Shown here: positions 17,131-51,257 of the stretch, in pieces
How the letters are laid out: each line of letters opens with the position of its first letter
Numbering within the stretch: the stretch's first letter is position 1
NCBI RefSeq assembly: GCF_029962835.1
Contig: NC_080574.1
Location: forward strand, 40,726,501 to 40,790,500
DNA length: 64,000 bases
Source of the DNA: Magnolia sinica
Taxonomy: Eukaryota; Streptophyta; Magnoliopsida; Magnoliales; Magnoliaceae
Direction of reading: 5' to 3'
Translations under genes and position numbers: made by a program
The notes under the pieces: generated by a model
Databases searched by the model: none
Seen by the model: the letters and a program-made list of their open reading frames with translations, nothing else
Told to the model about the DNA's origin: nothing

Positions 17131-18520
17131 GTGCAGATCCCGAGGAAAACGCCTAGCCTTTATAGCCACGGAGTCTGCTCGAACCCTACATCCAACGGTC
17201 AAGATAACCTACCGAGCACACACCTCCACTTCCTTTCCTCAATTGCAGGGGAAAATCCGATTCGAGGGATGGATTTTACACACCGAGGTCCACTGGAAAA
17301 ACAACTCAGATCTTAAAGTGGGGCCCACTCCATGATGGTGGGTCGATCAGTTTAACGGGGAAGATGACGTCGCCTCTAATGGCGTTTTCGTATTGGTTGG
17401 TTAAAATGGCCATGCAATCCATCTGGATGGATTAGATGGGGCATGGTATTAGTGTGGGACCCACTTTCTCTCTTGCAACTCGTCTGAGTGCAATATCCCG
17501 CGAGATATTTCGCCTCCAAAGCTTTTCTCACGAGATGGGTGGCTCTGCTGAGAGAAACGTTGCAAACCTACAGCGGACGATGGAGAGCACACCACGTGGC
17601 CTGGTGGAGGCTTCGGATCATGCCAGTGTACCCTTCCCGAAGTGGGAATGTTTTCCCCACGTGGTTTTGTCTCGCAGGAGGTTGCCTGCCTGCTTTTGAC
17701 AACGAGAGAGCACGCCCTCCAACGGCTGAGCGGATGGACGGGATTACATGCCCAAAACGATCCCGGACTGCCCACGTGGTCATAGAAGGGTCCACCATCC
17801 TGGATCTTAACCACATGAAGGATTCCAAATGGCTCTGTCCGATCTCCTTCGTATTTATACATGGGCCCAAAATCTTATGGGTTTTTGGTCCTCCGGGCCC
17901 CATGAACATGATGAACGGTTCGGATCTTTCATATGGTGGCCAGGGTGGGCCACTTTGGAGGTTGACGTTCAAACACATTTGAAAATTCACACGGCGGGAA
18001 GGAGATCCGTAACTTGCGGTTTCGACTCGGTCAGAGGTCATTTGACCACTTTGGCTGGTCCAGTTCACTTCAGGTGCAAGTCCTCGTAATGCACTCTCAC
18101 CCTTCTGTGGGGTCCATGGTGATGTCCGTGAGAAATCCACTCCGTCCACACTATTTGGAACCCTAGCTTGGGGTCCTGGGGTCATCGATCAGGCAGATAT
18201 AAAGCCTAGGTGGGGCCCACGACTTGATTTGGGTCATCTCAGTGGGTTTTCGTCAATCCGACGGTCGGATCACCCCGAAATCTAACGTCAACGGCTAAGA
18301 GGGTCTAATGGCTATTTGTATGATTTACTAACTAGACATTAACATTAATACTAATGTTATTATTATTACTTTAGTATAAACTATATACATCATTATTTAT
18401 TACCCTTTATTACTATACTTATTATTGTTTGTTATTATTATTATATTACTATCATTATTTCCTAAGGTGTTTATCATGGTTGGCATTTTGATTAATGTCC
18501 TTTAGTTACTGTAGGGCTTA

Positions 18521-18660
18521 CACTACAAGAAATATCATCATCTGCGGCGGATTCTTACTGGCGGCCCCAACGAAACGCCCGTGTAGATACAAAATATGCG
18601 GCGTTTTTACGTGGCCGCCCGTGTACGGATAAGCCACCGCCGCTGGAATTAAAACAGAAA
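18521..18660. repeat. Left CACTA subterminal repeat region
   Basis: After the CACTA terminus come GCGGCGG, GGCGGCC, TGCGGCG, TGGCCGCC and CCGCCGC in both orientations. In En/Spm relatives such motifs bind TnpA. A TC-rich stretch with a repeated CCAAATCGCGCGCGCC word (18700-18780) and a (CT)n run (about 18950-18990) follow and may be an old promoter and leader. Confidence 0.7.
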
Positions 18661-18953
18661 AAAAAAGAGGGTCTTTTTGCCTCCCAAATTTCACCCCCAA
18701 ATCGCGCGCGCCTTCTTCTCTCCAAAACCTGTTTTCCCTCCTCTCCCAAATCGTCGCATCTCCAAATCGCGCGCGCCAATGTTTCTCTCCCAAAAACCCT
18801 TCTTCCCTCTTCTCTCCCAAATCGCCCCATCCCCAAATCCCTCACCCCATCCCCAAATCCCGAAAGTCTCTCTCTCTCCAACGTCCCTCCACTCCGGCCT
18901 CTCTTGAAAGAAGAGATAATTGAAGGTACTCTCTCTCGATCTCTCTCCCTTCA

Positions 18954-18987
<34 letters not shown>

Positions 18988-19689
18988 TCACTTCCCCTTT
19001 CGATTATCAAGCAGCGGCAGCCATATCCGCGGTTGTCCATGGCCGCTGACATCTGCTGGTTAGTTGTTTGAAGAAATGCTTCAACTAATAACATGCACCA
19101 CTGTTGTACATTTAATCTCCCTGTTTCTTTCATACTTTTTTGGCCCATCCATGAGTGGACTAACCTGATATATGGGAGGGGAACAATCAACATAGATCCA
19201 CCTCATTAGGAAGGGCTTTTGCAAACTCATCATCTCTTTCCTTGAGGTGGGAATTGAGTGGTTGTGAGAAGTTGGCATATTGGAAAGAGAGTGATAGTTT
19301 GGAAAGGTCTGAGTCCTCTTGGGAGTGGTTTTTGGTTTTGCAAAATGCAACAGGACTGGTAACAACAAATTAATCCTTTTGATGTCCATCTTTAATCATT
19401 TAATTTTTGATATGATTTTTCTTTGTTTTAATGAATGCAGTAGTTGGCTTCATTTGTAGTATTGTTACAAAGGTTTAGCCTCACGAGGATATTTATTGTG
19501 TTTAGGAACCTATAATGATGTTGTTGCCCTGTTCTCAAATTGTTTCACCTGGACCTGTGTAAAGCATTTCTCTAACCTGTAAAATGAGGTCCTTGACATC
19601 TGATTTTATAATCCCCTTCAGTTTGCAGTATCCACTCTTTAGTTTGCCTTTACCTAGAAAACATGCCTATATGATCGCTGCAAGGAGCT

Positions 19690-20040
19690 TATTTTAAGGC
19701 ATGAGCCTAAAAATGAAGCAGATACAAACCTGAAGTGGGCCACACCACAGGAAACAGTGGGGATTGAATGCATCCAAAACTCTAATGGGCCACAAAACAG
19801 TGGGGATGGAAAAACTCATCATTGACACTTCCTTGGGCCCACCATGATATTTATATGACATCCAAACAGTTCATACAGTTTCAATTATACCCGTAGGGAT
19901 GAACAGAAAACACAAATATTAGACTGATACAAAACTTTAGTGACCCTAGGGAAGGTTTCAATGATAAGCGTTCAATCATCACGTTTTCTTGTGGCATGGC
20001 CCACTTCAGTCTAGGGTCTGTCACATTTTTGGGTGAGCTG
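19690..20040. mobile_element. Foldback fragment FB-d inside the CACTA
   Basis: Family core words are clear: GGCATGAGCCTAAAAATGAA, CACCACAGGAAACAGTGGGG, CTTGGGCCCACCATGATATT, CAAACAGTTCATACAG, GATACAAAACTTTAG and GTGGCATGGCCCACTTCAG. The outer arms are missing. It must have entered the CACTA or come with captured DNA. Confidence 0.65.
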
Positions 20041-20840
20041 GCCAAAGTCTTGGCCCACTAAGATGGCTTCTATAAAGGAACGGATGATACAACTTCAAGA
20101 TGCACAAAAAGGAGCAGAGGTCACCAAGCTACATACACATTTCTTTTTTCTTTTTCTTTTCCTGGTAAGCCCAATTGAAGGAAATAAGAAGGAAAGAAAA
20201 AGAGTAGAAAACTAGACCCTAACACTATTGACCAACTTTTGCTTCAAAGTGCTTGTTAGCATTCCCTTTCTATGAAATTTTGCTTAATGTCAATCTCATC
20301 AAAGTAACAAGATTTCTATGCAGGCACATAGAAATCTTGTTACAACATTCCTATACATGCAATAAATTCCTGTCTGACAGAGCTCATAGTTGTGGCAGAA
20401 TGCAATAAATTCTAGGTTAGTTTGAACATTATTGCTGGCCATTAAAATGGGCCTGTCATTTTTTATTTTCCCATTTATCAGTTGGTAAGTTGGCACAGAA
20501 AATGCTTCATTTAATTGTTCATTTGTCGTTGGTTTGATATTTGTGCAGTTGATGATAGCAGATATGAATTGATGGTAGCAGATATTTGTGCAGTTGATGA
20601 TATCATATGATGAATTGATGGTTGTTTAGTACATTATAGCTGGTTCTGCGACCTGATAGTCATGTCATTTTAGAGCTTCAAATCTAGTACAAATGCCATA
20701 GTTGTTGTTGTTGTCTTTCTTGGCAAGCATAAAATTCCATCCAGTCATTTCTCAGTTTTTCCTCAGTGCTGTTTGATATGAATGTTCCTGCTGTTTGTAG
20801 AAGAACTGCAGGCATGGCAGCTGAGACCCTTCTCATCACA

Positions 20841-21629
20841 TTATTGCTGAAGTGTGCAACATTTGCAGGAAGACAAATAAATCTTCTTAAAAAAAGGTGA
20901 AAGAGCGTGCTTCTTTCTCCCAAAGCAATTTATAACCTCTTGACAAGAGTGCAGGATCTCATCCATGCTCTGCTCGAGTACTTTCAAGCGCATCTTATCA
21001 AGGTGAATGTGGCCAACAAGGCTTGTATCCGCTTCTGAACTTTCAGGTATTTGTCGATGCCTTCGGTATTCAATGGAGAAGTCAAAAGCAACATCTTTTA
21101 AAGTGACTTTTTTCAAACGATTCTGAACTAAATATGTTGCATTCTCCTTGCAATGCATTTTCCCATAGAAGCACTCATTCAAATATAGAATAACTTTCCG
21201 ATCAATAATATCATTCTTGAAGTTAACTTTGCACAAAAGTATTTCCTTCATCGATTCCCATGAAGAGTTATTGCTCTGAGAAGAATCAAGAACTGCTTTA
21301 TATGCAGGATTTGATACTGCAGTAGCAGCTAATACACCAACCGGTTCACCAGCAAGAGATCTGCCAGGACTATTTTTGTCCACCTGTCCATACTCAAATT
21401 GAATTATAGAATTGCTGCAGAGGTTTCTCACTGTCCCATCATAACAGATAACGACATCTCTAAGTGTGGCCATTAGATTTTTAAACAAAGTTCCTGGTTC
21501 AGTAAGTCCTCTGGAAGAACGGATCAACACTTCCCTGGATGATATGGAATGGACCAACTCTTCATAGGGGGTCAGACCTTGAAAAAAGGAGCTCTTAACT
21601 AAATGCCTTAGAAGGAGAGTCAACACCAT
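20841..21629 (-). pseudogene. NRPE1: Captured fragment of NRPE1, largest subunit of RNA polymerase V
   Basis: A 262-codon open frame without introns or stops that reads as the C-terminal catalytic part of a largest polymerase subunit. From about residue 14 it shows SSFFQGLTPYEELVHS, then TEPGTLFKNLM..LRDVV..YDGTVRN (Rpb1 domain 5), then GEPVGVLAATAVSNPAYKAV (trigger-loop region), then KVNFKND..DRKVILYLNEC and LVGHIHLDKM. This wording fits plant NRPE1 (Pol V) rather than NRPB1 from what I recall; NRPD1 (Pol IV) is the alternative. Pol V makes scaffold transcripts for RNA-directed DNA methylation. The metal-binding part, the rest of the subunit and the WG/GW tail are absent. Downstream of the TAA near 20841 similarity fades after a frameshift. 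It lies antisense to the PPR fragment inside the CACTA. Function as a protein is unlikely. Confidence 0.82.
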
Positions 21630-22851
21630 TAACAGAATACTTATTTTGGAAGTAGAAACTCGTATCCTTAACCAAACGCACCAGCTTTCATATTGGATTC
21701 TTCTTCTTCTTCTTCTTCTTCAAAAAAAAAAAAAACTCCAACTGCAGTTGCATTTCTTTTAGGCAATCTTGAAAATAATGTAGTTGCCATTTAGAGTCCA
21801 GACCCTCAATATCAAACAACCAAAACAATTACACAAGAAGAAAATGTTTGGATTATTCTTTTTGTGCACCTAATAGCAAATTTTTCTCAGTCAGTGTTAG
21901 CTTGAAAACATTTCCATTATTGGAGTTTACATCCAAAAAGCATCCCTAGTAAATAATAATGTGGGCATCCATTTGTTTTTGCTGTGGTTTTATTCATGAA
22001 CATGTATTGGAGAAAGCTGCACTTTCAGATGAGTATTTTCTGAAGAGGAAGCTTTTTATCTAAACTTGATTTTCTACTATGGCTTAATCTATCGGTATAT
22101 TTAGGAAATTTTTTCTTTACTCTCCTACTTTTGTGGGTATTGCCACTGGTTTGTCTTAACGAGAGCAATGGGATTCCCTACAAAGTTCTTCCCTGTTTTG
22201 TTTGCAATCCCTCGCATGGCTAGCTACCTATCATGCTGGATCTGCAGTGTAGAGCATATGAGGAATTAAATGCACCTTTTTGTTGTAGCACCATGCATCT
22301 AAGCCTGAGCTAGGGTTGAACCTGATATGAGGAATTAAATTCAGCTTGTATTTCTAGCACACAAACACCCCCTCAGTATTTCTACTCATTTTAAAAATTT
22401 AACTCTTTACTTCTCTATTGTGCACCTCATTGATCAATTGTACGATTTCACAATGCATGTATTGTGGGGAGTTCTAGCATACTTCTTATTGATTGCATGA
22501 CATTACGGTTTGATATCAAGGATAACCGAAGTGAGCTGATATGAGTGCCGAATACCCAGCATATGCTAAAAAGCTCCCTGAAATATACTGTAACTGTTGG
22601 CCTGGCTTCTTTCAATACAAGATTTATTGTTTAAGTACCTAGAATTCTCTCACCTATTATTTTCTAAGAAAGATTCAGTGATGTTTCAGCAATAGGTACA
22701 CCTGACATGGCATCCATTATTTTTTTTTAATTATTTTATCTGCCTCACATTTGGGTTCTGTCCTATTTTTGAACTTCTAATGGATGGAGTGGATATCCTA
22801 GGGACATCAAGGTAGTTCTCTTCTATTTGTTTTCTTTTCTGATTTCTTTCC

Positions 22852-23088
22852 TTGAAAGTTTTTTCTTTGTCCAACTTCATACATAGTTTCATCTACAGAC
22901 GGTTGGATTCACTTCTTTCAAAGACGAGAAACTTCTTTGAAAGTGGGGATTATGTTCTTCTACCAAACATGTATGCAAGTGCTGGCCAATGGAACAAAGT
23001 GACAAGAGTGAGAGAGGCAATGAGAAACAGAGGAGTTCAGAAACCAGAGCCAGGTAACAGCCTCATCGAGCTACATCCAACAATTTAG
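22852..23088 (+). pseudogene. Captured fragment of a PPR protein (E motif)
   Basis: From about residue 30 the frame reads ESGDYVLLPNMYASAGQWNK, then VTRVREAMRNRGVQ, then PGNSLIEL, the E domain that ends many PLS-class pentatricopeptide repeat proteins of organelle RNA editing. No PPR repeats precede it; the first 28 residues are not recognised. Stop at 23086-23088. It is the second host-gene piece in this CACTA. A split PGC (here PEPGN) and the lack of repeats argue against function. Confidence 0.75.
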
Positions 23089-26000
23089 CTTGAATCAGAA
23101 CCAACCAGAAAATGGAATGAAGCAGTTGGTACTACAAAAACATGAGTTATGCATGCATTTACTTCTTGAGTAAATTCAGAAAAAAAGTACTGCCATTTTC
23201 TTTTGAGATCCAGACTCCTATAAATAACATCAGCTATGAGTAATTATCCAGTCCTGTCACCTGCAATAGTATAGTACCACGGGGCAAGGTACAGGGATCC
23301 AAATCACTATTTTGATGGGGCTCACCATGGATGGTGGAATACCTCATAAAGCTCCTAGATTTGAATTTCCCAACCCCTTTATTTACTGTCCTATTGATTT
23401 TTTGTACTTGGAAAATCTAGATAGCAATTGGAGTTCATGAACCTAAGTTAATAACCCCTTCAAACCCATATGTCAGGTGAATGCGTTGCTCCGTCTGGTG
23501 ACTCTTAACAGCTTACCTATGGGCAGTGGCAGTAACGTCATTTGCATTTCTTAGATATGATTAATATGTACATAGAGATTGTGTACTAGGCCAGGGTTTG
23601 GCCTAATAAGTTTTAAAGTAGGTTTGGACATAGAAAATCTGATCCATGTTAGCCCAGTGCAGGCCTTGTAATATGCATTGGGGAGTCTTCCGACTCAAGG
23701 CGCTTGCCTACCATAGGTGAGCTGACCTGGGCCCCACAGGATATTCATGGGTTAACGAGTTCCTAGAATGATGAAAACTTTGATAATCTGGCAGAGTGAG
23801 ATGGATGACATACAGGCACTTGGCAATTACATAGGATTGTGTACAGGCCATTGATGAGTTTGAAAAACCATCATTTTTTTCCGTATATAATGTGGCCCAC
23901 CTGATGACAGGCCTGACCTGATTTTTGCTAGAGTTAGACATATCTAAACAATTTATTTTTTTTATCTTAGTTTAATTATAGAGGGCACATCTAAACTCGT
24001 CTAATCTCTTTAATTTAATCTTAGTTTTATAAGATTATGATTGTGATTTGAATTTTGCATTTGCATGTCTTTAATTTATTCTCTTTTGTTTCTTTTCTTT
24101 TTTACATGTGGTCACTTGGTCATTTCAAAATACAAAGGCACCCATTAGTGTTATAATGTTGCCAACCCACCTCCATTATTTGAAATTCACCAAATTCTCT
24201 CGATGTGTTGAAAACTTCGTTGAATGCTCCTTATGTTGAAACTGAGTGAGACATTAGAAGTTTGAAGTAGCTCCAGATGAATTGAATAACAAGGTTCCAA
24301 TGCATCAGGTTGTGTGAATCTTTTCTTTTCCTTCTCTTTCTTTTTTTTCTCTTTTTCCCGGTTTCTTTTTAGTTCTAGGCATCACACAAAGCTGGATACT
24401 CCAACTGGTTAGAAGTATACTGGATATTAGATGCATCATAAACTTATTGTTTTGAAAATGCAGGCTGAAACTGACAGGGAAGCAGGAGGAAACAATGAAT
24501 CATTAGTGAAGTTTAAGTCCAGCTAGTCCTTTAGCCATTGTCTACTTATAGAGACCAAGAAGCATTAGCGTAGAACAGATACAAGGCAATAATTTATTTA
24601 TTTGTATGGGGTTTTGACAAATCTCTTGATGTGGATCAGGTGAAGTTCTATAAATCCTTTACCTTTATGAGTGTATGCAAGTGCTTGTAGTAGGTTTTGT
24701 ACTTGGGAGTACTTCACTAGGGGTGTTAGACAACTTTATCTGAAGGAATGCTACTCTTGGACCTGCATCCATGGTCATTCACATGTGTAGAGTTGGCACA
24801 CGTGCATGGTCCAAATTTCTTTTGTCCTTTTTGTCCTTTTTGTTTGTTGGTAATTTGTTTGGTATACCAAATCTTGCTAGTGACATTTTTGGTCACTGAC
24901 CAATGAGCTCACTTGTACAAACTGAAAATCGAAATAGTATTCTGTAATCCTTCAGACAGAACAATGTATAATACATGTTGTACATCATGCATACCAACTG
25001 TTGGATGAATTACCTCAATAAAGAACGTTTTGTGTGGATCTCACCTGTGGGACCATCTTTTTCTATCGATGAATGGGCACACATGGATGTATGGTTGAAG
25101 ACTATACCATTGATGCCCCTTTGGATAAAAGTAGAGCTAGTCTGACCATTTAAACTTTTCTTTCATCATTATGTGTTTTTACACCTTATAGATTTGATGA
25201 ACTTTAACCATTTTTGCTTTTAGCCCAGTTTGAGGGATACCATTCCGATGATAAAAATGCAATTGCCAAAGTAATTTTTAGTCTGTCCAGATACATAAGG
25301 ATCCATCAGAGGGATGTTTCAGATCATCAAAATATACAATCATGTGTGCTTGGCTTGTCCATAATTGTTTGAGCCAAGAAATGGGTCTCAACCACTAATT
25401 ATCCTTATATCGAATGCTTACACAGATGCATTGAGGTCAAAAAGCCTCGAGCTTGTGCAACCCAGCTCTCTTACAATCTAACACAGGCCTGGATAGAAGG
25501 TGTGTAATATCCAAGCTTTCCATCAGGTGGTTCCCCACTTCTTGATGCCACGGTCCAAAAATCAGGCAAGTCCACTCCATGTAAGGATCACCCAAAGCAA
25601 GGGCCCCACACCCTTGGCTTATTATTATTATTATTTTTCTTACCAATCTTCATTGCTTCAAAATATAATGAAGGGTTTCCATAATGTTTGACTTGTATTA
25701 TGTATTTATCTTTGGTTGTAAGATGCTTATTCAAAGTGGAAGTAACTATATAGAGTGTAGGCTCAGGGGTCCACAATGCTTACATGGATGCATGATCAAA
25801 GCTACTCATCAGGTACAAGCCACTATATGGCTTTCCTTGTGCTAAATTTTGGTCCATCCATATTGAGTTGCATGCTAGTTAATGCTTCTATAAAAAGGCT
25901 CATATTGAGTTGCATGCTATGATGTTTATGATGCAGTTTTATCCTTGAAGAAAGAAGGGGAGAAAAATCTGTCCACATATTTATAAAAAAAATTCCATAG

Positions 26001-26107
26001 CTGTTCTCCTCCATCTGCTAGTTACAGGTATTTATTAGTTCCTTTTATTTTATATCAAATTTGTTTTTTGGTTGTTTTATTTTGTTTTGTAAACTTTTGT
26101 CTTTGCA
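23089..26107. other. CACTA interior without recognised gene
   Basis: AT-rich, intron-like sequence. A possible terminal exon starts after an AG at about 24462 and reads AETDREAGGNNESLVKF to a TAG near 24525. Some GGGGCTCACC and GGGCCCCACAC words occur, and a TTATTATT run lies near 25620. Other captured pieces may be too diverged for me to see. Confidence 0.4.
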
Positions 26108-26117
26108 TTGGTAACTG

Positions 26118-26389
26118 AAGGTGGAGCATTGGTAATAGAGGGGGGCTTTGCTGCTTCATATGGGGATGGATATGGACTTCATTCGGTATGGTTGTTTTTG
26201 CAGGAAATATTTATGACTGAAAATTTAATTTTAGGTGTAACTCAGATTATGAGTGTACATACTATTTTATTACCTGACCTCTATGCATGGCAGGGTGGTG
26301 CTGACAAAGGTCCTCTATATGGCATGAGTTCTCTTGTTCTTGGGGTGCATTTGAGAAGTCTCACCTCGGGCATCGCTGAAGTCCGTTGA
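26118..26389 (+). other. Possible terminal exons of an unrecognised gene in the CACTA
   Basis: A Gly-rich stretch (GGALVIEGGFAASYGDGYG) preceded by AG and followed by a possible GT donor near 26185, then a second AG at about 26294 and GGADKGPLYGMSSLVLGVHL to a TGA at 26387-26389. It might be the 3' end of a CACTA accessory gene or a third captured piece. I do not recognise the family. Confidence 0.3.
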
Positions 26390-26589
26390 TTTTTTTGTCC
26401 TTTTGCTTTTCTTTGTGTCTCAATCTGTAAATTTTCTGTCCATTATGTAAGCTTTCATTCTCAGGCCCCTGTAATGAGGTTGGTTGTAAATGATTTATAA
26501 GTTGTGTTTGAATGCTAATTTAAGCTTGTAAAGGTCTTTTGATTTAGAAGATTCAGTCTAGTATTTTTTCTTTCATACTATGAAGGATT

Positions 26590-27026
26590 ATCGGCATTTA
26601 AAACAGATTTTATTGGCGTTTTTAAATCTCTCATTATCACTGTTACAGGCTCTACCGGCGTTTCTTGCAAAATTTACCTACATTCCTCATACCTTTTAGT
26701 GGCGTTTTAAAGTTTTTACCGGCGTTTCTTAGAGTTTTTGCGGCACTTCTCATTTCTACCGGCGTTTGCATGGTTTTTAGCGGCGCTTTTATAGTTTCTA
26801 CCGGCAGTCAGCAGAGCCGCCAGTAAATGATTATAAGCGCCGCTATATGTTAGGTTTAGCGGCGGCCGCCAAAAACGCCGATGAAAATTAACGAACGTCG
26901 TTAATTAATACAGCAACGCCCCGCTTCTGCGGCAGCTGCCCGACCGCCGGTAATTATTATACCGGCGGTGTTTTGGACTTTTAGGGGCGATTATGGCCGC
27001 CGGTAATACCTATTTTTCTTGTAGTG
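26590..27026. repeat. Right CACTA subterminal repeat region
   Basis: At least seven copies of (A/C)CCGGCGTTT or TGGCGTTT spaced about 20-50 bp, then GCGGCGG, GCCGCC and CCGCCGGTAA in both orientations up to the terminus. Mirrors the left end and supports CACTA assignment. The GC islands stand out in an AT-rich background. Confidence 0.78.
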
Positions 27027-27739
27027 TTAATAGGAAGAATTTAAACTTGTAAGTGAGCCATGTTTTCTAAATACATAGGTTACTTTACGATCTATGGAGA
27101 TCCGACTGTGAGATCATTACAAAATATGATCAGTGGTGATCCCTAGGGTTCTTGGCCTAATTTAGGTGAAAATCATCGAAGAGTTTAGTAATAAGCGGCC
27201 TAATCAAAATAATGAGGTGGTGCACATCTATGGGAGTTCCCAAAGTTAAGTAAATGATGGATCTGTTGATCCAAACCTTAAGGCATAGGATAGATGTCTT
27301 GATGTATGAATTGGGACTGTTTCCAATGATTAGATTTAGACTAGAATGAACGTGAACGCTTGTCTAACCTAGGTTTGTATTTATACCAAGTTAGGTTACA
27401 CAGCAACACCCGAGTACCGGAAAGTACAGGGTGTTACACTTAGGGAGGACTTCAACGGTGGACATTTAACCACTATTGTCTCCTAGTGTGTGGTCCACTT
27501 GGGAGTTGAATCTAACTCTCTATTGGGCCCACAACCCTTATACAAATCGGGGAAATGGATGGACATCGTGCATGTAACACATACATCATGATGGACCTCA
27601 TAAGGCAGCCCCATGGTGGGCATATAGCCCATAAATCAGGGTGGGCCTCTCAATGCAATGGGGCCTATGGCCTTAGAGCATTGGATGAGCGGTGTGGATA
27701 TAACACATACATCATGGTGGAATCACTCATCACAATTGG

Positions 27740-39366: not shown

Positions 39367-41505
39367 TGTTCACTCCCCAAGTATAGGTTTGTGATATAGT
39401 AATAAACTCGGTAAGACCGAGGTCGAATCTACAGGGACTGAAACTTGTACGTTTCCTGAAACTAGGTAGAAATAGAACTAGCCTAAGATGTAATCAAAAT
39501 CAAATGTAAATTTAAGGAATAATTGTGGAATAATTATCTAAAACTTAAGGAATTCAGAGAAAGGAAACTAGGGATTCAGAGGATCCACTTGTAGAGATCA
39601 GGGAGATCTTATGCCTACATCAGGAATCATGAAAATCAAACTGAACTTACTTGATTTAGTCTTCACGAGATGAATGGTATATGAATTAGAATCGATTCCA
39701 TCACCAAACCATACCCCGGAGACAAAGTTAACAACAGAATTAAACTAATCACCAACCAATCAACATGCTATGAAGGTTAGGAAGGGTACTATCATCCAAC
39801 CATGCCTAGGCGACAATGGTGAACAACAGGGCCTCCTGACATCATAAACATTAAAAGAGAAAAAGAAATATTCAAAGCCATTGCAAACCCATTGTAATTT
39901 CAGTCACAACAGACCATTAAAGACTGAGAAAATATTCCTTTAATAATCAACTTAAAATCAAATTCAGTTCAGAAAATTAAACGCATAGAATAGACTCTCC
40001 CATCTCGCTACAGGCTTCACCTCTTAGCCCTAGCTAAGAGGTTTAGCCACACATGAATGGGCTGAATAAAACAACAAAATAAAAATAAAAAAAGAAAAGA
40101 AAAGAACAAGAAGGAAAGAGAGAAAACCCGCTTCACGTTCCAGCCAAAACAAGCAAGTGACAAGCTTTCCTTGCCAAACTCTTCCTGTCTTCTCGTTCTC
40201 CAAGCCAAGCCCCTGGTGCTCACGTCCAAAAAACTCCTTTTAATGCTTTCTCCCTCCTGTTTTATAGAAGACCCCCTGTACAACTTCAGTCCAAGTTTCC
40301 CTCCCGCACCACGAAAGCTTTCGCAATTTGTTTACGCAACTGAGTTCGTAAGCGCAGCAAAAGCGCAAAACGACTTGCGTTTGGAGTGTATTTGCGGCGT
40401 GATATCGACCTACCTGACAATTCTGAAATCTTGGCTAGGGTATTGGCCTCCCTGTAGACACATTAGACGGTCTGGATCACTCAAAATGTTAATGATCGTG
40501 ACCCACTACCTCCCGCAAATCCCGGATTCGACCGGATGCGGAAACAGAGCCTGCGCAAAGAGGAGTTCGCTGACGAGTTGGTGGTGCCCCACAGAGGTAT
40601 TTTCGGGGAAATCCACCCCGTCCATTGGATTCAGGACGAAATTTCGGTCAAGAATGGGTGGTTTTGAACGTCCATTCACGAGGCCCAAAGAAGAAATCAT
40701 GCCAAAATTCATTTTGAACGTTGCAGGAGCGCCTGTTTGTGGCCTCTGTATCGTGCACATGTGCACGCTTGGGTGTAAAATTTTAGCAAGGTTTTATAGT
40801 ATTTGAGGCCCTCTACACGATGGATGGCTTGGATCATCCGAAAAATTACACTGTGGGGCCCACTACCGTCTGCAAAACGGACGTCGGAAACAGGCGTGGG
40901 TCAGCGCCTGCTGACCCGCTGACTCGATTCGGTGCGCGGCGGGAGCGTGTGTACGTTTTGTACACACGCTGTACATATGGGGCCAACTGTGATGTATATG
41001 TAAGATCTGATCCATCCATTTGTTTTGTCAGCTCATTTAATGAGTTGAACCCAAGATTGAAGCATTTTCAGATACCAGGCGGGCCCCAAATCACTGATTT
41101 ATGGGTTGATCTATCCGTTGGGTCACTTCTAGAGGGATCCAATGGCTGAAATTTGACGTGTACGGTTAATTTATGGCCCTCAGGCCATGTATAAAGTTTT
41201 GAGTCGAACAGATGATGGAAACCCAGTGATCTTACATTTTGGCTGACTTCTAGGCCGCTTGAGCTTTAGTTTCTCGATTTTCGCGGATCCCTGGCGTATA
41301 ATTCCGTAGATCTTGGTCCCTTAGAGTCCATCCCTTGCCTTGGTACATTCTGAACGTTAAATCCGTGCTTTTAGCATCCCGATCTAGTCCCAGCTCGCAA
41401 TTCCACCTTGCAACACAAACATGATTAAAATGGGTTATTAAATGGTACCATGTTCATAAATCCAGGTAATAACTGGGTTTGATATGCAATATTCGACCCT
41501 CAACA
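39367..41505 (-). repeat. 3' LTR of Athila (2139 bp)
   Basis: Plus strand reads TGTTCACTCCCC to CCCTCAACA. Aligned with the other LTR nearly throughout. Nearly all differences are transitions. It lacks a piece of about 45 bp present in the 5' LTR near 50597-50640. Confidence 0.95.
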
Positions 41506-41517
41506 CAACCCCTAACC
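41506..41517 (-). other. Polypurine tract
   Basis: Minus strand GGTTAGGGGTTG directly before the 3' LTR. The decayed copy has GGTTGGGGTG in the same place. Primes plus-strand DNA synthesis. Confidence 0.65.
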
Positions 41518-42943
41518 AGCATCTTGCTAGTCCCGAGCAAGGTATGCGAAAAATAAATTGAGAATTACAGGACAATTTCTACAAACTCAAGAGATTTATG
41601 AAAACAATTCAGATACTCGATTTCTAAGATTCATGAATGTTGGCATTACTTTCTCCTGAAATCAAGCTCACGGTAAACTTCATAATCAAGCTCAAGTATT
41701 AATCCATTAATTAGAATGATTCTAAATATTGAATTCCATGGGTTTATCGTCTAATCTCGACTTGTCAACATTAAGATTTACCTCTCTATTTAAGGATATC
41801 ATTGGTAACCAATAAAAGAATTCACGATAACTCAAACTTGCTTCACACATTATCTTTTTATTCTTTTTAATTTTTAATTTTTTCATTAAAAGTAATGCCA
41901 AGAAGGGGAATCAAATCCTCACCTAAAGGGAGCAAACCTATGATGAAGACTGTATACCTAAATTTTTTTCACATATCATTCATAGGGAATTAAATCTACA
42001 CCTAAAGGGAGCAAACCTATGGTGAAGATTATTTGCCCAACCCTTTCCAAAGGCATCCGATTTTTTTTTTCTTCTCTCTTTTTTTTCTTATTCTTTGTAT
42101 TGAACAAGATGGACAATTCCCCAGGTTGGTTCCTTCCATGCTTAATGATCACCAAGTTACAATTCAATATCGAACTGAAACCTTAATGTGCAAGCGAGAT
42201 GTGACCTGTGAATTCATGACTCAATCAATGTTTACAACTTTTAATAATGGATTAACAATTCAAACTTAGTTGTGAAATTCAATAGATAACTAAATCCAAG
42301 AGTCATAAAGTACCAACATCACGCATCTTGATATTCTAAGTGCCCTAGATGGCCGTCAAAATCACTTCGAATTCATCAGAAATCCTGAAAAATTAAAAAA
42401 ATTTCACAACTTTTGCTCAAGACCAAGAAAACACTGATTAGGAAACCTAATCTCCCACCCCCAACCAAAAATTTACATTGTCCTCAATGTAAAAGAAATA
42501 AACATGCAATACATATGAGACAACAGAAATATAGGAGGAGTGATGGAAAGATAGTACCTGGACGAAAAGAATTAAGCGGCTTTCCAAAGATATCTACGTA
42601 AGAGCGGGTCAGCACAAAAGAAAATCCAACAGAAGTAAAATAAAATAATAAAAATAAAATCCTACCTATACCACTTTCGTAGGTGCTCTCGATTGCATTT
42701 AGCGTATGCAACAAGCCTTTAAACCCCTAGGTTGCCCCTAGTGGACGAGTTGTAGTCTCGTGAGGGTTTGCAGTAATGTTATCCACAAACATTGAACTAA
42801 CTAATGATAAAAATAAAATGAAATGATGAGCTGGGTTGCCTCCCAGGAGAGCTAAGTTTACTGTCTTCAGCCAGACAAATAAAGCAACAGCTCTAGTCCT
42901 ATGAAAGCGATAAATCTACCTATACCTTCATCAGACTAGGAGA
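41518..42943 (-). other. Athila 3' untranslated region, no env-like gene
   Basis: AT-rich with T-runs and repeated AAATCTACACCTAAAGGGAGC-type words (about 41900-42020). Full-size Athila elements often carry a third, env-like ORF here; none is visible, and the open frames seen are short. Confidence 0.6.
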
Positions 42944-44134
42944 TCAATCCTGGTAAACAGGATCAGTCAGAGGTATGGACATGTCCTCTGAATCAAATTT
43001 CTCGACAAATGGTTTTAATCCATGTCCATTGACTTTAAACTCCTTGCCATTGTCGGGATCTCTAATTTCAACGGCCCCATGAGGAAAAACAGTAACAACA
43101 ATGTAAGGGCCGGTCCAACGGGATCAAAGCTTACCCGGAAAGAGATGTAATCGAGAATTGTACAAAAGGACCTTCTGACCAGGCGTGAATGATTTTCGCA
43201 AAATGTGTTAGTCATGAAATGCTTTCATCTTGTCCTTGTAAATTCTCGAATTATTGTACGCATCATTCCGGATTTCCTCCAGTTCATTCAATTGAAGTTT
43301 GCGTAGCGAGCCAGCGTTGTCCAGATTGAAATTAAGATTTTTGATCGCCTAGTACGCTTTATGTTCCAGCTCCACAGGCAAGTGACAAGCCTTCCCATAG
43401 ACAAGTCTAAAGGGAGACATTCCAATAGGGGTTTTAAAGGCAGTACGGTATGCCCATAAGGCATCGGTCAATCGGATTGACCAATCCTTACGGTCAGGGT
43501 TAACCGTTTTCTCCAAAATGTGTTTAATTTTCCTATTAGAAATCTCGGCTTGCCCACTTGTCTGTGGGTGGTACGGGGTGCTCACCTTATGAGAGATACT
43601 GTATTTCTTCATTAAGCTCTCGAATAGTCTATTACAAAAGTGTGAGCCCCCATCACTAATGATGGCTCGAGGCGTTCCGAATCGAGAAAGGATGTTTTCT
43701 TTTAGGAATTTAATGACCATGCGATGGTCATTAGTTCGACACGGAATCGCTTCAACCCATTTAGTGACATAGTCCACGGCGAGCAAAATATACAGATTTC
43801 CAAATGATTGGGGGAATGGTCCCATGAAATCGATGCCCCAGCAATCAAATGCTTCAATGATAAGGATGAGATTCAAAGGCATCATATTTCGATGGGACAA
43901 TGCTCCCAATTTCTGGCAACGCTCACAAGCTTTGCAAAACTCATGAGTGTCCCTAAACATAGTGGGCCAGTAAAAGCCACACTGCAGAATCTTGGCCGTG
44001 GTCTTTTTAGCAGAAAAGTGACCACCATAGGCCTCTGAGTGACAGAAGGAGATGATGCTCTGATGCTCATCGTCTGGTACACATCTCCTTAGAATTTGGT
44101 CTGGGCAATATTTAAATAAATAAGGATCATCCTA
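42944..44134 (-). pseudogene. Athila integrase, broken
   Basis: HHCC zinc-binding part near its start (ACERCQKL carries the two Cys), then the catalytic core with [19 protein letters not shown] and HPQTSGQAE supplying D, D and E (mostly in the open stretch 43349-43960), then the C-terminal part to a TGA at 42944-42946. Stops are at 44132-44134, 43349-43351, near 43214 and near 43123; each can be explained by one base change. Normally it joins new copies to the genome. Confidence 0.88.
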
Positions 44135-44163
44135 GAAAAAGTTGTGCACCTCGGTGAAAAATT

Positions 44164-45738
44164 TCATCTTATCTTGCGCAGTCCACTGTGTCGGTATGGC
44201 ACCTGTAGCAAGATAATTAGCAATATCAGCAAACCAAGGTGAATGGAGACTCTGAACAGTTGTTCATCAGGGAACATGTCATTGATATGGGTCGCCTCAA
44301 GGGAATCAAAGGTATTAAGGCGAGAAAGGTGATCGGCCACTACATTCTCTACTCCCTTTTTATCTTTAATTTCTAAATCAAATTCTTGGAGTAGAAGGAT
44401 CCATCGTATCAAACGGGGCTTAGAATCATTCTTAGAAAGAAGATACTTAAGTGCTGCATGATCTGTGTAGATAATGATCTTGGATCCGATCAAGTAGGAC
44501 CTAAATTTGTCCAAGGCGAACACTACAGCTAAGAGTTCCTTTTCTGTAGTCGAGTAGTTCACCTGGGCAGAATTTAAAGTTCTACTTGCGTAATGAATGA
44601 CGTAGGGCCTCTTATCTTTTCTCTGGCCTAGGACCGCCCCAAGAGCATAATCAGAAGCGTCGCACATAAGCTCAAAAGGAAGGCTCCAGTCGGGTGGCTG
44701 CATGATAGGTGCAGTGGTTAACGTGCCCTTAAGCTTGGTGAAAGCTTCCTGGCATTGCTCAGTCCACTCGTACGGAGCATCCTTTTGAAGAAGATTACAT
44801 AAAGGACGAGAGAGGAGACTAAAGTCCTTTATGAATCGCCTGTAAAATCCTGCGTGTCCTAAGAAGGATCGCACGTCTCTGATGTTCTTGGGTGGAGGTA
44901 GGTTAGAGATAAGATCGATTTTTGCCTTATCTACCTCGATTCCTTTGGACGAGATGATATGCCTAAGGACAATTCTCTTTTGAACCATGAAATGGCACTT
45001 CTCCCAATTAAGTACCAAGTTCTTTTCTTCACATCTTTTCAGCACACATTTAAGACTTTCCAAGCATTTGCTGAAAGATGGACCATAAACAGAGAAGTCG
45101 TCAATGAAGACCTCTAGATATTGCCCCACCATGTTAGAAAAAATACTAAGCATACATCGCTGAAAAGTGGCAGGGGCATTACATAGTCCGAATGACATCC
45201 TTCGATAGGCAAAGGTGCCGTAGGGACATGTAAATGTGGTCTTTTCCAGGTCTTCAGGGGCTATCTCTATCTGATTGTAGCCCGAATACCCGTCAAGGAA
45301 ACTGTAATAAGAATGACCAGCTAACCTTTCCAAGATCTGATCAATGAATGGTAAAGGAAAGTGGTCTTTCCTCGTGACGGTATTTAATTTCCTGTAGTCA
45401 ATGCACATTCTCCAACCAGTAGTGACTCTAGTTGGCATGAGTTCATTATCAGCATTGGCTACGATGGTGATTCCGGACTTCTTAGGGACAACTTGAGTTG
45501 GACTCACCCATTGACTATCAGATATGGGGTATATAATACCCACGTCCAATAGTTTGAGAACCTCGGCTTTAACCACTTCCTTCATGTTTGGATTTAGTCT
45601 ACGTTGTGGTTGCCGAGCGGTTTTTGCATTATCCTCAAGATATATGCGGTGAGTACAAATCGAGGGATCGATTCCCTTGAGGTCTGCTATCGTCCATCCC
45701 AAGGCTCCTTTATGCTCAATGAGAGTAGATATGAGCAT
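44164..45738 (-). pseudogene. Athila reverse transcriptase and RNase H
   Basis: 524 codons, the longest intact piece. RT shows MCIDYRKLN (residue 111), FLDGYSGY (147), SFGLCNAP (182) and the active-site box FIDD (211-214). RNase H shows [12 protein letters not shown] (360), TEKELLAVV (398), [10 protein letters not shown] (424) and DHLSRL (469), with the catalytic acids present. It is cut off from protease by a frameshift near 45770 and from integrase by one near 44255. The catalytic residues look intact even though the full polyprotein cannot form. Confidence 0.92.
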
Positions 45739-46142
45739 ACTCTCCTGTTCTTTCTCTGGTGGGCAGAGATCACCACCGGGTATGTCTCATCTTGACCTAA
45801 ATAGGCATATTTCAAATCAGAGGGCAAAGGTTTTAGGTCAAGCTTCGGTGGCTTGAGGTTAGACGGTAGAGGCACTACATCGGTTTGTGGTAATTCTTCA
45901 AATTGTGGCCTCCACCGGTTAACTTCAAGTACCGGTGCAGTATCAAGCAAGGCGCACGTCTCCCTAAGCATGTCATCATCAAAATCATGGGAGTGGGCCA
46001 GGCATGTCTCTAGATGGTCGGAGGATAAGGTCAGAGGTGTCGTATCTTCCACGAAAGAGTCAATCATGTTAATGTCGTGGAAATCGTCATCATCCTCTGA
46101 GTTGCTGCCGTTATTGAAAAAAATGTTTGACTCCAATGTCAA
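45687..46142 (-). pseudogene. Athila protease-RT linker
   Basis: Acidic linker (EDDDDFHDINMIDSFVEDTTP, then CLAHSHDFDDDM, then [20 protein letters not shown]) that continues the protease after a frameshift near 46150 and passes to RT after another near 45770. The same linker opens the decayed copy at 6184. Confidence 0.82.
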
Positions 46143-46146
46143 ATTT

Positions 46147-46737
46147 TCAAAAGACAGTCATGACACCATTCCTGCAATTGATAATTGCATTTAAAGTGAC
46201 AAGGAATGGGCGGCCAAGAATGACGGGGATCTGAGTGCTTATGTTATTGATGGGTTCGGTGTCCAGGATGATAAAATCTACAGGGTAGTAAAATCTATGA
46301 ACTTGGACCAACACATCCTCGATTATCCCTCTTGGTACACGAACAGAGCGATCAGCAAGTTGTAGTGTGGTTAGGGTGGGTTTTAATTCACCCAAACCTA
46401 ACTGTTTGTATACTGAGTAGGGAATCAGATTTATGCTCGCTCCTAAGTCAAGAAGTGCGTGATCAATTCGATGGTTCCCGATTACACATGATATGGTTGG
46501 GCTACCGGGATCCTTGAATTTCTGCGGCACGTCTTGCTTCAGGATGGCACTCACTTTCTCAGTCAAGAAGATTTTCTTTTGAATAATTTTCCGTCTTTTG
46601 GTCGTGCATAAGTCTTTCAGAAATTTGGCATATGAAGGAATCTGTTTCACGACATCAAGTAGAGGAATGTTGACATTCACCTGTTTCAACACCTCTAGGA
46701 TATCTTGAGAATTAGAGAGAGGTTTTGGTGCGACCAA
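46147..46737 (-). pseudogene. Athila aspartic protease
   Basis: Retropepsin with ALLDLGASINLIP (catalytic Asp near residue 97) and ILGRPFL near residue 173. It is in the same frame as gag but separated by TAA codons at 46834-46836 and about 46738-46740, each one C-to-T change from CAA. It ends in a frameshift near 46150. Would normally cut the polyprotein. Confidence 0.88.
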
Positions 46738-46833
46738 CCGTTAGAAAAATGGAGCAACTGGCTTTTCTATAAGTTCCGATTCTAATTTTTGTGGGGCATC
46801 ACTAGATCCATCATTGTTGTCCTCTTCCGATTC

Positions 46834-48281
46834 TTAAGGCTTTTCGGGCCTAACCGGAAGGGTTTTATCAATGATCTTCCCACTCCTAAGAGTGGTGATG
46901 GATTTAGCATGCCCCATCTGATTTGAAGAGCTGGGATCATTAATCTCGTATTGCGGTTCAGGATTGGGGAGAGGTTGTGCAGGAAGCATCCCCTTTTCTA
47001 TAACCGTCATACGAGAATCTATCTTTTGCATAAAATCTATAATTCCCCGCATTGCCTGAGCCAGCTCTTGTATGGGATTTTGAACCGGTTCCTCTTGAGG
47101 TTTCACTTGATTTGGATTTTGATTGAAGAAACCTGGAGGAGTCGCCGTTTGTCCATTCCTCCAACTAAAGTTTGGATGATTTTTCCAGCCAGGATTGTAT
47201 GTATTGGAGTTAGGTCCAGTAAAAGGTCTTTGATAGTTATTTACGGCATTGGCTTGTTCATTTAACACTCCTTGAAAGGCAGGTAATGTAGGACAGTTTT
47301 CAGTTGTATGAATGTTGCAATCACAGATGCCGCAAACAATTTCATTGACCTTATCCTTCTTTCCTTCCATGGCCTCAACTTTCCTTATGAGTGTATTCAC
47401 TTTACACTTGAGATCATGCTCTTCTTTCAAGAGATATAATCCACCTTTCTCCTTTAATTGAGTTGGCTTAGACGTGGTGTTCGCCATTGGGTAATAGTCC
47501 CATGATTGTGTTTTTTCAGCCAGACTGTCGAGGTAGTCCCATACCTCGTTGACATCTTTATTAATGAACTCTCCATTACACATTGTCTCGACCATTTGGC
47601 GCATGGAAGATGTCAGTCCATCATAGAAAAAATTTGTAATGCGCCACGTTTCAAATCCGTGTTGTGGGCATGAACTGACTAAATCTTTGAACCTTTCCCA
47701 ACATTGGAAGAATGTTTCATCTTCCTTTTGGGCAAAGTTCATGATTGCTTTCCTGAGGGTAATCATTTTATGATGTGGGAAGAATTTTTTTATGAATTCC
47801 CTCTGCATGTCGTTCCACGTGCCAATGGATCTAGGACGCAGTGAATGTAACCACGTCTTATCTTTCTCTTTTAAGGAAAAAGGAAAGAGTTTCAGCCTAA
47901 TTGTATCCTCAGATACATTAGGAAAACATAATGTAGCTATAATCTCATCGAACTCTTTCAAATGTAAATATGGACTCTCTGATTCAAGTCCATGAAATTT
48001 GGGAAGGAGTTGGATAACTCTTGGCTTGATGTCCATTTGTCCCGTGTTTTCAGGAAAAATCATGCATGAGGCGTACTCACTCCCGCCGGTTGTAGATAAT
48101 CTCGTAAAGTACGAGGCGGGGGTGCCTGTTGCACCTCATTCTCATCTTGGGTATCCTCCACCCTTGGTGGAAGTAGAGGAGGTTGGTCTTCAGCCATAAC
48201 TTCAGTTAACTCAGGGAATTTCGAGCGGTGTTTAGTCCTGCAATGGATAGTCAACCCCTCAACCAATCCTCCTTCAGTCAA
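46834..48281 (-). pseudogene. Athila gag, one frameshift
   Basis: Two frames: 48281-48060 with RTLRDYLQPAGVSTP, then 48063-46834 with RVIQLLPKFHGLESESPYLH, the capsid part (WNDMQREFIKKFFP, FAQKEDETFFQCWERFKDL), and a CX2CX4HX4C zinc knuckle (CGICDCNIHTTENC). They overlap at ATGA near 48063, best explained by loss of one base. Gag forms the particle that packs the RNA. Confidence 0.88.
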
Positions 48282-49052
48282 GAGACGTCGAGTGTTGTCA
48301 CAGGCTCACTTGGGCATGGAACACTCGCAGCCCTCAATCAAATTCAAACTCTAATCCTAAGAAAGGAAAAGAAAATCTAAAAAGAAAGAGAGGGAGAGTT
48401 GGAAAGAAATTACCAAATTGAAGCCCCTAAGTTAAGGACCTGCAAAATAAAAACAAAATAAGTTAGATTCTAAAAGAAGAGGAACAATCCTTTTAAAAGA
48501 AAGGTAGCAGTAAACTAATTTCTAAAAGAAAGTGGAAACTTCTAAAATAAATTAGGAAAGTCCTAAACTAGAAAGTAAATTACTAAAAGAGAACTGGAAA
48601 ATAGAAAGTAGAGAAGGAGCTTACCGAATTAGAAATTTCTATTTTAAAGGCCTACAAAATAGGAAGGTTAGTTTCTAAACAAAAATTCTAAAAATAAATT
48701 AGGAAACAAATTAGATTTTAAAAGAGTTAAAATTAGAAAGTTACTAAAATAGAAAGTTAATTTCTAAAAAGGGAAAGAAATAACCTAATTTCTAAAAATA
48801 AACTATTTCCTACAGAAGGGAGGATACTAGAATTAGAAAATTTCTAAAATTTAAACCCTAATTCTAAAAATAGGAAAAAGTAGAGAGATTAGGAAGGAAT
48901 TACCAATTGAGAAACTTATGTCAAAATACTATAAAACAGGAAACAAGTTAGTTTTGAACTCAAATAGAAATAAATAAAAAACTAAGGTTAGTAAAATCCT
49001 AATCTTAAACTAATCCTAAAACCAATTAATTTCAGAGAATCGTAACCGTCAG
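48282..49052 (-). other. Athila leader with AATTAGAAA repeats
   Basis: Between primer site and gag. About 48430-49000 is full of short imperfect repeats of TTTCTAAAA/AATTAGAAAGT on an A/T-rich base. No ORF. Confidence 0.6.
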
Positions 49053-49070
49053 TCCCCGGCAACGGCGCCA
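49053..49070 (-). other. Primer binding site, tRNA-Asp type
   Basis: Minus strand TGGCGCCGTTGCCGGGGA, six bases from the 5' LTR. This is the usual Athila primer site, complementary to a plant tRNA-Asp 3' end. Confidence 0.88.
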
Positions 49071-49076
49071 AAAACT

Positions 49077-51257
49077 TGTTCACTCCCCAAGTATAGGGTT
49101 GTGATGTAGTAATAAACTCGGTAAGACCGAGGTCGAATCCACAGGGACTGAAACTTGTACGTTTCCTGAAATTAGGTAGAAATAGAACTAGCCTAAGATG
49201 TAATCAAAATCAAATGTAAATTTAAGGAATAATTATGGAATAATTATCTAAAACTTAAGGAATTTAGAGAAAGGAAACTAGGGATTCAGAGGATCCACTT
49301 GTAGAGATCAGGGAGATCTTATGCCTGCATCAGGAATCATGGAAATCAAACTGAACTTACTTGATTTAGTCTTCACGAGATGAATGGTATATGAATTAGA
49401 ATCGATTCCATCACCAAACCATACCCAGGAGACAAAGTTAACAACAGAATTAAACTAATCACCAACCAATCAACATGCTATGAAGGTTAGGAAGGGTATT
49501 ATCATCCAACCATGCCCAGGAGACAATGGTGAACAACAGGGCCTCCTGACATCATAAACATTAAAAGAGAAAAAGAAATATTCAAAGCCATTGCAAACCC
49601 ATTGTAATTTTAGTCACAACAGACCATTAAAGACTGAGAAAATATTCCTTTAATAATCAACTTAAAATCAAATTCAGTTCAGAAAATTAAACGCATAGAA
49701 TAGACTCTCCCATCTCGCTACAGGCTTCACCTCTTAGCCCTAGCTAAGAGGTTTAGCCACACATGAATGGGCTGAATAAAACAACAAAATAAAAATAAAA
49801 AAGAAAAGAAAAGAACAAGAAGGAAAGAGAGAAAACCCGCTTCACGTTCCAGCCAAAACAAGCAAGTGACAAGCTTTCCTTGCCAAACTCTTCCTGTCTT
49901 CTCGTTCTCCAAGCCAAGCCCCTGGTGCTCACGTCCAAAAAACTCCCCTTTTAATGCTTTCTCCCTCCTGTTTTATAGAAGACCCCCTGTACAACTTCAC
50001 TCCAAGTTTCCCTCCCGCACCACGAAAGCTTTCGCAATTTGTTTACGTAACTGAGTTCGTAAGCGTAGCAAAAGCGCAAAATGACTTGCGTTTGGAGTGT
50101 ATTTACGGCGTGATATCGACCTACCTGACAATTCTGAAATCTTGGCTAGGGTATTGGCCTCCCTGTAGACACATTAGACGGTCTGGATCACTCAAAATGT
50201 TAATGATCGTGACCCACTACCTCCCGCAAATCCCGGATTCGACCGGATGCGGAAACAGAGCCTGCGCAAAGAGGAGTTCGCTGACGAGTTGGTGGTGCCC
50301 CACAGAGGTATTTTCGGAGAAATCCACCCCGTCCATTGGATTCAGGATGAAATTTCGGTCAAGAATGGGTGGTTTTGAACGTCCATTCACGAGGCCCAAA
50401 GAAGAAATCATGCCAAAATTCATTTTGAACGTTGCAGGAGCGCCTGTTTGTGGCCTCTGTATCGTGCACATGTGCACGCTTGGGTGTAAAATTTTAGCAA
50501 GGTTTTATAGTATTTGAGGCCCTCTACACGATGGATGGCTTGGATCATCCGAAAAATTACACTGTGGGGCCCACTACCGTCCGCAAAACGGACGTCGTCC
50601 GTCCGTTACGCAGCGCGAAACTGCTGCTGCCGTTTTTAGAAACAGGCGCGGGTCAGCGCCTGCTGACCCGCTGACTCGGTTCGGTGCGCGGCGGGAGCGT
50701 GTGTACGTTTTGTACACACGCTGTACATATGGGGCCAATTGTGATGTATATGTAAGATCTGATCCATCCATTTGTTTTGTCAGCTCATTTAATGAGTTGA
50801 GCCTAAGATTGAAGCATTTTCAGATACCAGGCGGGCCCCAAATTACTGATTTATGGGCTGATCTATCTGTTGGGTCACTTCTAGAGGGATCCAATGGCTG
50901 AAATTTGACGTGTACGGTTAATTTATGGCCCTCAGGCCATGTATGAAGTTTTGAGTCGAACAGATGATGGAAACCCAGTGATCTTGCATTTTGGCTGACT
51001 TCTAGGCCGCTTGAGCTTCAATTTCTCGATTTTCGCGGATCCCTGGCATATAATTCCGTAGATCTTGGTCCCCTAGAGTCCGTCCCTTGCCTTGGTACAT
51101 TCTGAACGTTAAATCCATGCTTTTAGCATCCCGATCCAGTCTCAGCTCGCAATTCCACCTTGCAACACAAACATGATTAAAATGGGTTATTAAACGGTAC
51201 CATGTTCATAAATTCAGGTAATAACTGGGTCTGATATGCAATATTCGACCCTCAACA
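49077..51257 (-). repeat. 5' LTR of Athila (2181 bp)
   Basis: Same ends as the 3' LTR. It has an extra segment of about 45 bp (around 50597-50640, starting near CGTCCGTCCG). As 5' LTR it would hold the promoter. Confidence 0.95.

Follow-up and report, generated by a model that had tools for sequence, protein, structure and literature searches.

The window analysed here, a stretch of 64,000 nucleotides from contig C2 (40726501-40790500) of Magnolia sinica, contains at positions 18521-27026 a CACTA transposon of 8,506 bp that carries a piece of NRPE1, the gene for the largest subunit of RNA polymerase V (Pol V). The left junction, TTA followed by CACTACAAGAAA (18518-18532), and the right junction, TTTCTTGTAGTG followed by TTA (27015-27029), comprise a TTA target-site duplication on each side (18518-18520 and 27027-27029) and terminal inverted repeats at 18521-18532 (plus strand) and 27015-27026 (minus strand), perfect over 12 bp at both ends. 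An earlier note on this DNA had reported complete CACTA ends with a TTA duplication, and the 12-bp termini with their flanking TTA confirm them.

The NRPE1 fragment of the window element

A 262-codon open frame on the minus strand (20841-21629) corresponds to NRPE1 over its residues 10-262. Residues 10-260 matched the Pol V largest subunit (PDB 8him) with an E-value of 1.8e-92, while the matches to the largest subunit of RNA polymerase IV (Pol IV; 4.9e-22) and to RPB1 (7.9e-11) were far weaker; the frame also matched the Pfam family PF04998 (E-value 1.4e-7). The best match was thus the Pol V subunit, over both relatives, and the identity proposed by the earlier note for this frame stands. Residues 1-9 of the frame do not read as NRPE1. 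The NRPE1 match runs upstream to about position 21679 in another frame, because of a 5-nt deletion private to the window (21601-21602, minus strand), which makes the 262-codon frame with an out-of-frame ATG; the 5 nt are present in the parent gene and in the sibling copy L017.

The whole fragment (20794-21679, minus strand) is intronless and 96.9% identical to the exons of the parent gene, which was found in the same genome, on contig C7. It represents nt 1320-2211 of a 2766-nt coding stretch made of seven consecutive parent exons joined, and lacks the introns at four parental exon junctions. A short stretch at 20762-20793 (minus strand), past an internal-deletion breakpoint at nt 2211, is common to the group of copies L016-L020. 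The fragment includes LTPYEELVHS, which we take to be the bridge-helix region. It does not contain the Metal A motif, DFDGD (nt 517 in the joined exons of the parent), and the word "catalytic", which the earlier note had used for the window frame, is therefore too strong.

The parent NRPE1 gene

The intron-containing parent lies on the minus strand of C7 at 95.714-95.758 Mb. Among the best 120 of 369 proteins listed there was no full-length Magnolia NRPE1, and the parent sequence was therefore taken from the genome itself, with P0042, a Tasmannia protein, as guide. Its pieces match Tasmannia NRPE1 residues 29-1890 in order across about 39 kb. Once joined, the large exon and the six that follow it (exons 6-12 as working labels only) form 2766 nt without a stop and with DFDGD; the stop check covered these seven exons, earlier parent pieces being matched only. 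The introns between them measure 128 bp, about 14.3 kb, 90 bp, 650 bp, about 2.0 kb and 7.1 kb.

A spliced retrocopy with a single insertion point

The copies from the genome align to the parent exons without the spanned introns, the one of about 14.3 kb included, each being missing exactly at the splice junctions. Of 20 copies analysed, 14 reach the 5' end, and all 14 begin at one parent base ± 1 (nt 346/347); the eight of them that were inspected have the 5' flank in common. Copy L021, on C14, enters the last of the seven exons and, after an internal deletion, continues with a block (parent 40244-40571) past the stop codon. It ends with an A-rich tail followed by AAACTAAATCAGA, 13 bp that also precede its 5' end and form a target-site duplication. 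The aligned locus L026 is an empty site, with the same sequence, no insert and a single AAACTAAATCAGA.

A query of the joined flanks gave 40 scored rows (124 candidates), 33 of which cross the insertion point; the other 7, at 6 loci, break there, and 4 of these loci adjoin an NRPE1 copy. A 31-base pattern had 35 matches, with none for the reversed control; 34 mark empty sites, and the remaining match is the junction at the 3' end of L021. The empty sites carry the target in two versions: AAACTAAATCAGA in a few, as in most filled copies seen, and AAACTCAATCAGA in most, and the version may identify the lineage that received the insert. Among 40 listed plant proteins, 14 stop matching after one shared SW-E-x-MK and continue with unlike residues beginning with V, as if reading into an intron.

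Splicing, 5' truncation, an end beyond the stop codon, an A tail and a target duplication are the hallmarks of processed retrocopies of the long interspersed nuclear element (LINE) type. The absent introns, the A-rich tail, the 13-bp duplication and the 34 empty sites therefore identify the NRPE1 piece as a retrocopy, not as DNA cut from the gene, with retroposition into an element already repeated in the genome. Ordinary transduplication, in which the CACTA element would have taken up NRPE1 straight from genomic DNA, the mechanism proposed for Pack-CACTA elements, would be in keeping with the E-motif fragment, and with the possible citrate synthase fragment, that the window element also holds. 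The same four features leave it extremely improbable, and direct genomic capture was rejected on the missing introns, the target duplication and the empty sites. The capture of NRPE1 by a CACTA element, as the earlier note had it, is right as to the carrier; the route is a different one, a spliced mRNA copy having been inserted and then multiplied.

Copy number and subfamilies

A protein search of the genome returned 137 rows at 91 places, and the counts that follow are lower bounds. Leaving out the parent (2 places), 4 places whose identity is below 60% and 8 places with just a short match (residues 186-220 only), there are at least 77 NRPE1-like places besides the parent, spread over C1-C19 and two small contigs, with a best identity of at least 90% in 64. 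The first tested exon junction is crossed uninterrupted at 60% or more in 70 of the 77; six do not reach it and one crosses it in a row of no more than 52%. The last matched residue falls within 137-149 in 27 places, within 176-183 in 20 and within 250-262 in 21. The eight short matches show 62-68% identity and lie away from other NRPE1 pieces.

In a tree of the 20 copies, the window element and L017 group with L016 and L018-L020 (support 0.962). This tree was rooted on the parent and cannot itself prove that the copies are one group; they are considered one group because of the shared insertion point. Along 4.7 kb the window element and L017 are 98.9% identical. A tandem duplication within the NRPE1 piece (DMSFHFQNKYSVNG repeated) was seen in L023 and L027 and is apparently common to a subfamily.

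CACTA termini beside the relatives

The terminus CACTACAAGAAA, with at most one mismatch, lies upstream of the NRPE1 piece in 13 of the 16 copies of ten kilobases, and L021 has the opposite terminus downstream; no CACTA terminus was found within the fetched stretch of L017 and L034. Homology between the compared relatives begins at the CACTA terminus or a few bases from it. Two elements without the insert agree with this: L042 has the terminus, with one mismatch, about 1.1 kb past the empty site, and in L041 the homology to L021 extends to the base where the terminus of L021 ends. A stretch of CACTA backbone in the window element (18906-19581) is 95% identical to the part of L021 that separates the retrocopy from the terminus, and most of it is also present in the insert-free L041 (93%) and L042 (95%). 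A long terminal repeat (LTR) retroelement had been considered as carrier and was dropped once CACTA termini were found beside the copies.

Protein constraint in the copies

Substitutions were examined over nt 347-2211 in the 20 copies against a neutral expectation keeping the base context. The 220 singletons comprise 157 nonsynonymous, 52 synonymous and 11 nonsense changes, against 147, 63 and 10 expected, which indicates no constraint; changes found in two copies (28, 16 and 1) also follow the expectation (29, 15 and 1). Three nonsense changes are common to at least three copies, and stops or frameshifts did not keep subfamilies from spreading. A conserved protein frame, as expected of a transposon-encoded anti-silencing factor, was absent from the 20 copies.

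Most copies have broken frames, the exceptions being L021, with 678 codons including DFDGD and the bridge-helix segment, and L022, with 681 codons and no DFDGD. Metal A is reached by 14 copies and is intact in L021; in the other 13 it is changed, or severed from the remaining NRPE1 by a stop or frameshift. L027 and L028, the two fetched at length of the 20 places ending at residues 176-183, shift frame there. Five Magnolia sinica proteins encoded off C7 are named "DNA-directed RNA polymerase V subunit 1-like": P0001 (C3), P0005 (C12), P0036 (C4), P0161 (C14) and P0162 (C8). P0161 fits copy L021 and P0162 fits copy L022, both transposon-borne. A stretch skipped by P0161 is skipped by P0036 too, perhaps because the two records draw on common transcript evidence.

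The long frames of L021 and L022 and the five named proteins would suit a decoy of the kind suggested by the earlier note, here a truncated NRPE1 translated from some copies and competing for Pol V partners. The change or severance of Metal A in 13 of 14 copies speaks against the decoy. Metal A is needed for Pol V function (PMC2605557); an inactive piece could still compete. The unconstrained singletons, the shared stops, the matches ending at residues 176-183 and a window frame without an NRPE1 start, its ATG being owed to the deletion, all count against it as well. The recent changes in the 20 copies fit neutrality and give no support to a conserved decoy protein, and we regard the decoy as very improbable.

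Methylation decay and potential for small RNAs

With the parent taken as the starting state and distinct changes counted, C-to-T changes affect 42 of 60 CG, 75 of 151 CHG and 82 of 522 CHH positions in the copies, and A/T transitions 48 of 1132 positions. Decay in the order CG, CHG, CHH is a mark of cytosine methylation, and the copies have therefore been methylated by the host. The joined parent exons contain 2342 24-mers within nt 347-2710, and 86.8% of these are unchanged in at least one of the 20 copies; the window element has 497 24-mers identical to the joined exons. By sequence, RNA from the copies could thus reach NRPE1.

Silencing of the copies might then yield 24-nt and 21-22-nt RNAs matching NRPE1, which would lower Pol V and blunt the family's own silencing, a form of camouflage. 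The retained 24-mers, the many copies and the methylation-type decay, in the CHH context too, are in keeping with such a feedback. Maize captured genes are described as sources of small interfering RNAs against their donor genes, together with the camouflage idea, in a 2026 review (PMC13317346), and in Arabidopsis the one major peak of association with recent transposable element mobilisation lies at NRPE1 (PMC8101250). The parent itself shows no CpG loss, its observed/expected ratio being 0.44 in the copied part against 0.39 and 0.43 outside. Its exons stand in order, matching Tasmannia residues 29-1890, and the seven joined exons are free of stops. The nearest opposite-strand pair of listed copies on one contig is not under 3.18 Mb apart, and therefore no nearby hairpin is evident. 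The undiminished CpG and the distance between opposite-strand copies lean against strong cross-silencing, and we consider the RNA feedback unlikely. That the NRPE1 cargo favoured the family, each round of silencing weakening Pol V or making full silencing costly to the plant, is likewise doubtful.

Other features of the element and of the window

A Pfam scan of 13 frames of the window element, the NRPE1 frame among them, found no transposase family, as expected of a Pack-CACTA element; no genome-wide search for a transposase source was made. The right end of the element carries GC-rich subterminal repeats of the ACCGGCGTTT type, in part at 26643-26809 and by eye from about 26600 to 27000. An E motif fragment (PF20431, E-value 1e-11), which we take to be linked to pentatricopeptide repeat (PPR) proteins, lies on the plus strand at 22843-23085, within a block (22814-23100) that recurs in relatives, for instance in L016 at 89%. 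The plus-strand segment 22105-22266 gave a Pfam match to the citrate synthase C-terminal part under the cut-off (E-value 1.4e-4) and is possibly a third host gene piece. Two inverted repeats of 66 nt (19706-19771 and 19968-20033), 74% complementary and spaced by 196 nt, look like a small nested element.

Elsewhere in the window, two near-identical frames (40171-40806 and 49954-50517) lie about 9.8 kb apart. Between them, at 43349-48063, are frames resembling a reverse transcriptase and an integrase, the arrangement expected of an LTR retroelement (40171-50517).

Discussion

What was observed, namely the anatomy of the retrocopy, the empty sites, the common insertion point, the number of copies, the pattern of decay and the lack of recent protein constraint in the 20 copies, points to a Pack-CACTA family with a spliced NRPE1 retrocopy as cargo, multiplied by CACTA transposition and probably a passenger, to which we assign a probability of about 0.88. 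One NRPE1 mRNA would have been spliced, reverse-transcribed with 5' loss and put into a CACTA element at AAACTAAATCAGA, the retrocopy probably being made by LINE-type machinery. The CACTA family would then have carried it to at least 70 places, presumably in trans through a transposase made elsewhere; the dispersed copies and shared termini suggest CACTA movement for each single copy. Internal deletions, the tandem duplication, stops and frameshifts would have cut the cargo into subfamilies, the window element, grouped with L016-L020, being a small derivative. The cargo is most likely a passenger at the protein level, and we infer that the copies have no significant RNA effect.

Several observations weigh against this reading. 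Both junctions of the retrocopy were seen in L021 only, with an impure tail (ATAAAATAAAA), and two loci (C16:51955578 and C4:82296719) are broken at the insertion point with no nearby NRPE1 match in the protein search; these are perhaps copies retaining just the 5' part of the retrocopy. The outer CACTA ends were mostly not reached in the other copies; in L016, L019, L023 and L027, which were extended, the 3-bp duplications were not seen, the elements running on or being interrupted. At the protein level, changes found in at least three copies (39 nonsynonymous, 25 synonymous and 3 stops, against 45, 18.5 and 3.2 expected) stand at about 0.64 of neutral (P = 0.055), slightly towards the synonymous side. 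The 11 changes present in 70-100% of copies (4 nonsynonymous, 7 synonymous) lean more strongly the same way; they may belong to the parent's own branch. The five Pol V subunit 1-like records, finally, hint at transcripts.

Pack-CACTA or Pack-TYPE elements, such as soybean Tgm-Express1 (excerpt of PMC1947982; survey, in part, PMC8903248), likewise have non-autonomous CACTA ends and several host gene pieces per element. The present family differs in that its NRPE1 cargo is a processed retrocopy, with a single insertion found at no fewer than 70 places, and in that the donor is a silencing-pathway gene. With LINE-type processed retrocopies it shares splicing, 5' truncation, extension past the stop codon, the A-rich tail, the 13-bp target duplication and the empty sites; such retrocopies normally give one copy per event, whereas here a DNA transposon multiplied the NRPE1 retrocopy. 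The ARF6 retrogene in MER20 is similarly reported as retrogene sequence inside a DNA transposon (PMC8277862). The VANC anti-silencing genes of VANDAL elements also place a silencing-linked gene on a transposon; the VANC proteins are sequence-specific anti-silencing factors (PMC10398659; review, PMC13317346), whereas the NRPE1 pieces here are mostly broken and under no recent constraint. Among the open-licence PMC papers listed, no title or abstract opening reports NRPE1 inside CACTA elements.

The family illustrates a two-step route, a retrocopy and then a DNA transposon, that turns a gene piece into a high-copy repeat. Several proteins of M. sinica named Pol V subunit 1-like are probably transposon cargo, which calls for caution in annotation. 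Nothing yet shows a disturbance of silencing by the NRPE1-bearing family. Pol V has a central role in RNA-directed DNA methylation, and the dozens of near-identical NRPE1 pieces constitute a natural experiment on a possible feedback of captured silencing genes on silencing.
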